This document shows positions 40,720-59,298 of a stretch of DNA of 64,000 nucleotides, piece after piece. The notes beneath the pieces were generated by a model. That model did no database searches. It was not told where the DNA came from and was given only the letters and a program-made list of their open reading frames with translations. Position numbers and translations under genes: made by a program. The DNA is taken from contig NZ_WKJC01000002.1 in the NCBI RefSeq assembly GCF_009674675.1, forward strand, positions 1 through 64,000, written 5' to 3'. Positions within the stretch are counted from its first letter, which is position 1. Each line of letters begins with the position of its first letter. Origin of the DNA: Kangiella sp. HZ709. GTDB lineage: Bacteria > Pseudomonadota > Gammaproteobacteria > Enterobacterales > Kangiellaceae.

Positions 40720-40787
40720 TGTCGGCTCAATGTCGTTAGAATGCCGGGGGACTTCTAATGAAAGCCGTCCATTTGTCGTGGTATAGT
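40720..40787 (+). promoter_or_regulatory. direct-repeat array and extended -10 promoter of the XRE-2TM gene
   Basis: TGTCG/TGCCG units start at 40720, 40731 and 40742, exactly 11 bp apart. Another pair (AGCCG 40763, TGTCG 40774) is again 11 bp apart. An extended -10, TGGTATAGT (TATAGT 40782-40787), follows with no recognisable -35. The same type of array and extended -10 precede the paralogous gene at 58840, so a shared activator binding one face of the helix is likely. Confidence 0.6.
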
Positions 40788-57972: not shown

Positions 57973-58734
57973 ATGAATCTAGACTTTAAGAATTCAGGTT
58001 ACTTTGTAAAGCAACACTTTCTAAATCATAGTCAAATTAATAGGTTGAGCTTAATTACTGAGATTTTTCATCATTCCTGGGTTGAAGCTAATATAGGTTT
58101 CTACGAAGAAAGGGCTATTAATTCTGCTTACCTCACTAGTCAAAAACACCTAAACGAAGAACAAAGAATCTCTCTACTCCAGTTTATTGGATCCAACCAA
58201 TTAATGGAGCAGGTTTACTCTATTATTCCTAAAGATCCTGCCTTTATGAATACTCAGCTATTCTTTAATCCGGTAAATCCTGAGCAAAAAAATTATTGGC
58301 ATAGAGACATCCAGTATGATTTGGATCTTGAGCAGCAAAAAGCGGCTTTATCCGGCCCGCAAGCTCTACACTTTAGAGTTGCCCTAAAAGACGAACCCGG
58401 AATCGAGTTAGTTCCAGGTTCTCACATGAACTGGGATACTCAAGAAGAGCTGGATGTGCGCTTGGAGCAAAATGGTAAGAAAAGTCACCATAACTTATCT
58501 ACTGGCAAAACCATCCCCTTAAAAGCGGGTGATTTACTGATCTTCTCAGCCAAAATGATTCACCGCGGACTTTATGGCTTAGATCGCTTTTCGCTAGATG
58601 TTCTTTATTGTGACTCAAACAAAGAGTTACTCAAATATGCTGAGCCTAACTGCCTACCCAATGAAGAGCAGCTAAAACTTATTGAGGACCCTACCGCTTT
58701 TATGAATACCGCCAAAATTATTAATTCGCTATAA
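57973..58734 (+). CDS. phytanoyl-CoA dioxygenase (PhyH)-like Fe(II)/2-oxoglutarate oxygenase
   Basis: 253 residues. Iron-binding facial triad H110-R-D112 (WHRDIQ) and distal His197 (MIHRGLYGLDR), with Arg205 as the likely 2-oxoglutarate anchor. The substrate is unknown; PhyH relatives hydroxylate lipids, amino acids and small metabolites. Divergent from pyrH in the island between pyrH and tsf. No close functional partner is visible. Confidence 0.8.
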   Translation: MNLDFKNSGYFVKQHFLNHSQINRLSLITEIFHHSWVEANIGFYEERAINSAYLTSQKHLNEEQRISLLQFIGSNQLMEQVYSIIPKDPAFMNTQLFFNPVNPEQKNYWHRDIQYDLDLEQQKAALSGPQALHFRVALKDEPGIELVPGSHMNWDTQEELDVRLEQNGKKSHHNLSTGKTIPLKAGDLLIFSAKMIHRGLYGLDRFSLDVLYCDSNKELLKYAEPNCLPNEEQLKLIEDPTAFMNTAKIINSL

Positions 58735-58752: not shown

Positions 58753-58798
58753 TGTCGTCCCTTTGTCAGGTCATTTTCGTCACCGCCAATGGTATAAT
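58753..58798 (+). promoter_or_regulatory. direct-repeat array and extended -10 promoter of the second XRE membrane gene
   Basis: TGTCG (58753), TGTCA (58764) and TTTCG (58775) are spaced 11 bp apart. They are followed by extended -10 TGGTATAAT (TATAAT 58793-58798) without a -35. The block GTCGTCCCTTTGTC is nearly the same as GCCGTCCATTTGTC at 40764, upstream of the paralogous gene. Confidence 0.6.
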
Positions 58799-58839
58799 TA
58801 GGCCATGATTTCCTCACAGAGTGTTGGGACCTTATCACA

Positions 58840-59259
58840 ATGATAGTTAAACGATTAAGACAAAAAAATAATTGGTCACAAGAACAATTAGCAACCATGA
58901 GTGGGCTTAGTATCCGAACCATTCAGCGCGTTGAAAGTGGTCAAAGTGCCAGCCTTGAAACTTTAAAGAGTCTCGCCTCTGTATTTGAAACTGATATTTC
59001 TAAATTTACAGAGGAAATCACCGTGATAGATAAACAATCAGAAAAATGGCAAAGCCAGCCTACATGGCTTAAATTTTTATTTTTCGGCGTCCAGAGTAGA
59101 AAAGTTGCTCTCGCCATAGAGCTTTCTTTTTTAGTGGTAGCTGTTGCACTTTGGATCTTTGTAGAACCTAGCTATCCTACAATATTAGCGTTAATTGCAG
59201 CTTACTTAAATTGCTTACTAGTAAGGCATGCTGACAATAAAAGCCTTTGGGATATTTGA
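58840..59259 (+). CDS. XRE helix-turn-helix protein with membrane helices
   Basis: 139 residues. HTH at about 3-55 (LRQKNNWSQEQLATMSGLSIRTIQRVESG region), nearly matching the protein at 40838. Here a shorter linker leads to two hydrophobic segments (about 85-108 and 110-128), which do not closely follow the 2TM domain of its paralogue. A membrane-tethered regulator is inferred. Followed by a terminator. Confidence 0.75.
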   Translation: MIVKRLRQKNNWSQEQLATMSGLSIRTIQRVESGQSASLETLKSLASVFETDISKFTEEITVIDKQSEKWQSQPTWLKFLFFGVQSRKVALAIELSFLVVAVALWIFVEPSYPTILALIAAYLNCLLVRHADNKSLWDI

Positions 59260-59267
59260 AAACCTAG

Positions 59268-59298
59268 ATAAAAAAACCGCTCATTGAGCGGCTTTTTT
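59268..59298. terminator. bidirectional terminator between XRE gene and DUF2799 lipoprotein gene
   Basis: CCGCTC (59277-59282), loop ATT, GAGCGG (59286-59291), with A run before and T run after. Ends both convergent genes. Confidence 0.85.

Follow-up and report, generated by a model that had tools for sequence, protein, structure and literature searches.

An array of TGTCR half-sites in 11-bp steps precedes two HTH genes of the window (the whole 64-kb stretch of DNA analysed here) and recurs upstream of most of their relatives. The array itself, its conservation, its linkage to one type of XRE HTH and its rarity elsewhere can all be read directly in the genome sequences. We consider it likely, with a probability of about 0.7, that this array serves as operator for the HTH protein whose gene follows it, so that each module would represent an autoregulated gene.

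Modules in the window and in the rest of the genome

The initial annotation had pointed to a second promoter-plus-HTH module at 58.8 kb, and both its array and its extended -10 element are indeed present as described (Table 1). The sister array at 40.8 kb, said to be the same, turned out to form two clusters with 11-bp steps within each, and its last half-site abuts the -10 element.

Table 1. Promoter elements and coding regions of the two modules (window coordinates)
Feature	Position	Strand	Remarks
Half-site array, 40.8-kb module	40720..40778	+	two clusters, 40720/40731/40742 and 40763/40774
Extended -10, TGGTATAGT	40779..40787	+	abuts last half-site; read from sequence
XRE HTH protein, 171 aa	40838..41353	+	Pfam 2TM domain
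Half-site array, 58.8-kb module	58753..58789	+	TGTCG 58753, TGTCA 58764, TTTCG 58775; 11-bp steps
Degenerate inverted half-site, CCGCCA	58783-58788 region	+	3' of third half-site
Extended -10, TGGTATAAT	58790-58798	+	read from sequence; no clear -35
XRE HTH protein ORF, 139 aa	58840-59259	+	C-terminal hydrophobic hairpin

The two proteins were also claimed to have similar HTH domains and different membrane parts, which our comparison confirmed. Their sequences are identical at 37 of the first 56 residues and share 41% identity over the whole length, and of these two proteins only the 40.8-kb one has the Pfam 2TM domain (PF13239, E 4.7e-12). In the 58.8-kb protein, the Pfam scan detected HTH_3 (PF01381) with 55.5 bits against a cut-off of 23 and no LytTR domain; after the HTH there were no curated Pfam matches, to PF13239 or any other family. 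The AlphaFold2 model of this protein (mean pLDDT 76, pTM 0.46) consists of the HTH, a linker and two long helices, 87-107 and 112-133, the former strongly hydrophobic and the latter borderline according to hydropathy. A Foldseek search with the model returned 403 matches at E <= 10, the best having an E-value of 0.023 and none reaching E <= 0.001. The top matches were HTH domains, and the modelled HTH was found to be similar to 434 Cro and SinR. Sequence searches against PDB gave nothing at E <= 0.01, while those with PADLOC and NCBIfam produced HTH-type matches alone, with all NCBIfam matches under cut-off.

Counting the modules in the genome (2.41 Mb in 11 contigs) gave more than the two already noticed, namely three at E <= 1e-8. 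The third, weaker module is located on another contig (C3:1889784). Its protein is likewise above the PF13239 cut-off, so that two of the three paralogs qualify as 2TM domain proteins, and its layout is that of the Kangiella-type homologs L061, L070 and L085. Its array contains two mismatches. With at most one mismatch, the pattern TGTCR-N6-TGTCR-N6-TGTCR matches the entire genome exactly twice, at 40720 and 58753, that is, at both modules of the window. With up to two mismatches there are 16 matches versus 14 for the reversed-pattern control, and therefore the array of the third module is not significant by itself. A model of the family array (R1, see below) identified the 58.8-kb array in the same genome with an E-value of 5.8e-8 and the 40.8-kb array weakly (E 1.7); in this search it missed the third. 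Besides ours, 19 genomes of the genus were searched, and all of them had at least one module match at E <= 1e-8.

Conservation and distribution of the array

Homologs were collected with a pattern search that yielded 541 stretches, 365 of them encoding a relative, and the best 80 of the 365 were kept. Among these best 80, the named relatives nearest to the 58.8-kb gene are Kangiella and Kangiellaceae records, which suggests a Kangiella-type gammaproteobacterium as the source of the DNA. L042, which contains an ambiguous residue, was excluded from the structure alignment. Upstream regions were compared for 78 of the 80 loci (L056 and L080 are left out of all upstream counts) together with our three modules, 81 regions in total. 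According to a matrix derived from this set, most arrays lie 82-90 nt ahead of the start codon; every array scored above its 60 shuffles. Because the matrix had been fitted to the very sequences it scored, we also used a plain count over 15 positions. At least 13 of the 15 were matched in 67 of the 81 upstream regions, compared with 0.67% of random 190-nt windows drawn from the 64-kb window, both arrays included. Together with the two one-mismatch matches in the genome, this puts the repeat similarity reported initially above background.

The array is often extended by an inverted half-site. CCGACA is matched at no fewer than five of six positions in 43 of the 48 regions of the 139-aa class versus 5 of the 33 others. 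In the 139-aa class, this inverted site and the third half-site make up a palindrome of the type TGTCG-N4-CGACA, similar in geometry to the 434-repressor operator.

Arrays scoring 14 or 15 of 15 precede genes for HTH proteins with very different C-termini: an unnamed two-TM end, the Pfam 2TM domain, longer multi-TM ends, a short hydrophobic tail (the 107-aa form) and even a soluble DUF4177-ended protein. One Pfam DUF805 member and a look-alike score 12. The constant part across arrayed members is the HTH with its RT(I/V)QR helix. The array follows the HTH domain and not the C-terminus. The proposal of a family of regulators was borne out and widened: its members are mostly HTH proteins predicted to be membrane-anchored, they share a cis-element, and they reach far beyond a single genome. 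When 274 genomes, drawn from across the class, were searched with the HTH of L219 for proteins with an R[TS][IV]QR read-out, five of seven newly found members had arrays with at least 13 of 15. Seventeen stretches were scored, eight picked for the one-mismatch array and nine for its absence, and those nine score 9 to 12. The query locus L219 (G062:C46) itself has an LKTVQR helix in place of RTIQR and TGTCC-type half-sites (12 of 15). It suggested covariation of specificity, which we do not claim, as this is one case; the new members read from the 274 genomes have RTIQR, a helix of the type that the read-out selected for. By eye, the leader seemed to contain a hairpin enclosing the Shine-Dalgarno sequence, but this idea was dropped when RNAalifold predicted 0 pairs for 22 leaders.

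We then looked at the array from the opposite direction, starting from the pattern. With at most one mismatch, it has 97 matches in 27 genomes, and 34 of these are followed at a distance of 59-122 nt by a family gene in the same orientation, for which the rough chance expectation is 0.01. Conversely, the one-mismatch array is found at 33 of the 70 family matches listed (one of the 70 is in a genome outside the pattern search). The remaining 63 matches are not at family genes; the reversed-pattern control has 48 matches, and a single repeated sequence in G061 accounts for eight of the 63. Some of the 63 are Pho-type promoters. Eight stretches with the pattern at genes other than HTH genes were read, six with phosphate-related-looking genes and two with a dapE-like gene; the genes are ones we take to be phoA-like, porin/pst-like, 5'-nucleotidase-like and dapE-like. 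In the Kangiella-type genomes G040, G043, G045 (L166) and G052, a TGTC/11-bp array lies between the dapE-like gene and another gene, the HTH gene not being adjacent, and G056 (L174) has a related array. In our genome, two of the two-mismatch matches, L101 (G000:C4:353458) and L102 (G000:C4:361189), are upstream of pstS-like and phosphate-porin-like genes and are probable Pho boxes.

Model R1 was built from 36 of the 48 upstream regions of the 139-aa class, after excluding L038, L040, L044 and one duplicate, and then L018, L020, L024, L036, L045, L046, L048 and L055. With 150 candidates scored per genome, it produced 34 matches in 24 of 25 genomes. Of the 30 inspected, 28 precede an intact family gene and one (L133) precedes none; the other (L135, G009:C17:14232) is followed by a broken relic of an HTH gene. 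Most of the inspected arrays were already in the model or known. Six were new, four of them before an intact gene and one before the relic.

Candidate readers of the array

Since the HTH with the RT(I/V)QR helix is the constant part across members, it is the most economical reader of the array. The XRE HTH would recognise TGTCR half-sites as 11-bp direct repeats on one DNA face, over or just upstream of its own -35 region, and the C-terminal hairpin would anchor the protein in the inner membrane. With such anchoring, promoter occupancy would follow both protein level and membrane state. The three paralogs resemble each other in both HTH and half-sites, so they probably bind each other's arrays too, with the HTH itself as their common factor. 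From the sequence patterns we thus infer binding, autoregulation, membrane insertion and cross-talk. One common factor for the family, as the initial annotation envisaged, is plausible, but it is best identified with the HTH itself and not with a LytTR regulator. Repression seems slightly favoured over activation because a half-site abuts the -10 element in the 40.8-kb module. Spacings elsewhere would also suit activation: at 58.8 kb, TATAAT lies 18 nt downstream of where the third half-site begins, and for 26 of the 81 regions the distance to the best hexamer resembling a -10, often a weak one, is 28-29 nt.

The proteins resemble XRE autoregulators of the Cro/C1 type in having the HTH_3 domain, a candidate operator at their own promoter and, in the 139-aa class, a palindrome. 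They differ in the prevalence of 11-bp direct repeats, in the putative C-terminal membrane hairpin and in that no target gene is seen adjoining here. ToxR/CadC-type membrane-bound regulators tether a cytoplasmic DNA-binding domain to the membrane, as the HTH proteins presumably do, but theirs is a winged HTH combined with a periplasmic sensor, as opposed to an XRE HTH with a bare hairpin. The predominance of direct repeats speaks against the HTH as reader, as XRE dimers are described as reading palindromes (PMC12565409). Also counting against it are the listed family matches that lack a one-mismatch array, the poor performance of R1 at the 40.8-kb and third modules, the two plasmid copies with no array and the 63 pattern matches away from family genes.

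The main rival to the HTH as reader is a PhoB-like factor. In that case PhoB, or a different response regulator of the OmpR/PhoB family, would use the direct repeats as its box and activate the HTH genes from -35, with the HTH acting elsewhere or on the palindrome alone. We regard this as unlikely, and it stays a rival because Pho boxes have the same geometry: they are 11-nt direct repeats with the E. coli motif CTGTCAT (PMC4415409). The resemblance covers TGTC half-sites, their 11-bp direct repetition and the -35 region, and six of the eight stretches mentioned above have phosphate-related-looking genes. To compare the two kinds of sites, we took 40 arrays from the 48 regions of the 139-aa class, and 19 of 26 pstS upstream regions (score >= 11, duplicates once). 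The R position is A in 17, 18 and 18 of the 19 pstS boxes versus G in 32, 27 and 38 of the 40 arrays, and spacer GC is 13% versus 54%. On the Pho matrix, the 58.8-kb and 40.8-kb arrays score -9.2 and -15.1, lower than any Pho site scored, and neither is a Pho box of the TGTCA type. Non-pstS Pho-type sites score between 3.1 and 16.6, and the array of the third module, at 8.4, is therefore borderline. Moreover, 14 of the 40 arrays score above 0 (best 12.3), and one porin-type Pho site reaches 25.2 on the family matrix, so that by these scores the separation is incomplete. The inverted fourth site, however, is foreign to Pho boxes, and family arrays, with TGTCG instead of TGTCA and GC-rich spacers, are tied to one HTH family: the family model found few other genes among the 150 candidates scored per genome.

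It is extremely unlikely that the common controller is a LytTR protein or its kinase. In favour of this idea, LytTR Regulatory Systems also combine an extended -10 with direct repeats, and their paralogs act on each other's targets (PMC6193735). Our genome does have two LytTR genes, and LytTR is present in 33 of the 38 genomes with a homolog. One of the two genes belongs to what we take to be an AlgZR-like pair beside a hemC-like gene, the other presumably to a sensor/LytTR pair. The expected LytTR gene with the same upstream repeats did not materialise: none of the 16 array matches in the whole genome (up to two mismatches) is at either gene. A kinase was sought by reading the ORFs around the array matches by eye. 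In addition, LytTR (PF04397) was unmatched in five of the 38 genomes, whose completeness is not given; among these five, L083 has the full array, and in the four from rhizobia mostly the last two half-sites are present. Finally, most repeats of LytTR Regulatory Systems are about 12 bp apart (PMC6193735), in contrast to the 11-bp periodicity here. The array could also be a relic, or a promoter element carried along by a mobile gene, with no regulator acting on it at present. Some homologs do reside on plasmids or beside attC-like sites, but the half-sites recur in the same phase in Kangiella, on enterobacterial plasmids and on a plasmid fragment of Bradyrhizobium, and the 58.8-kb copy has no attC-like flank, which leaves this alternative very unlikely.

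Returning to the HTH as reader, the likeness to LytTR Regulatory Systems (HdrRM, BrsRM) is one of working principle, not membership. Both have several paralogs and direct repeats close to an extended -10, and in both the regulator is linked to a membrane part, a predicted one in the case of the HTH proteins. The differences are the XRE HTH versus LytTR, the 11-bp spacing, and a single fused protein versus a regulator with a separate membrane inhibitor; the gene 3' of the 58.8-kb HTH gene is on the opposite strand and encodes a DUF2799 protein, and no separate membrane inhibitor gene follows downstream. A more general picture, which we put forward as tentative and rather doubtful, is that of widespread, partly mobile one-protein membrane switches. 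In these, a membrane-held XRE HTH would read direct half-sites that succeed each other in helical phase in front of its own gene. Paralogs with swapped C-termini and one operator code would be wired to one another in a network, making them the XRE equivalent of LytTR Regulatory Systems. Among the titles and abstract openings listed from open-licence papers there was nothing on this family, and none of those listed mentioned '2TM domain'.

Since the conserved array, a candidate operator, goes with a single HTH type, it can be used to recognise family members by sequence and lends itself directly to binding assays. Should the hairpin have a sensing role, the proteins would be membrane-signalling regulators of very small size, and the swapping of C-termini while HTH and operator stay the same would amount to a natural experiment in modularity. 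On the practical side, genome-wide Pho-box predictions may pick up family arrays because of the common TGTC/11-bp geometry.

Mobility and genomic neighbourhood

Our first attC detector found no sites in the 78 loci. A detector allowing gapped arms found attC-like sites in 7 of 156 flanks, at six of the 78 loci, versus 5 of 1121 windows in the null set. The attC-flanked homologs are L015, L017, L019, L029, L034 and L054, and most of their genomes have an integron integrase. At these six loci, therefore, the gene and its own array seem to travel as an integron cassette. An integron integrase was above cut-off in 11 of the 14 genomes tested; our genome and two others were without one. Of the six plasmid copies, four score 14 or 15 of 15, the Bradyrhizobium copy being a fragment. 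The other two have no array; one is the Klebsiella copy, immediately preceded by a gene for an IS5 transposase, and one comes from Alteromonas stellipolaris.

The 58.8-kb copy is flanked by a uridylate-kinase-like gene (Pfam AA_kinase) and a gene that we take to be tsf-like. Because the HTH gene is also beside a tsf-like sequence in the relatives L009 and L011, the window copy looks vertically inherited. A PhyH-like dioxygenase gene (57973-58734) lies between the uridylate-kinase-like gene and the module; a similar sequence occupies the same place in L012 but seemingly not in L010. Directly 3' of the HTH gene, at 59277-59298, we read a hairpin, CCGCTCATTGAGCGG, with a T-run, which is possibly a terminator common to the HTH gene and the opposing DUF2799 gene.
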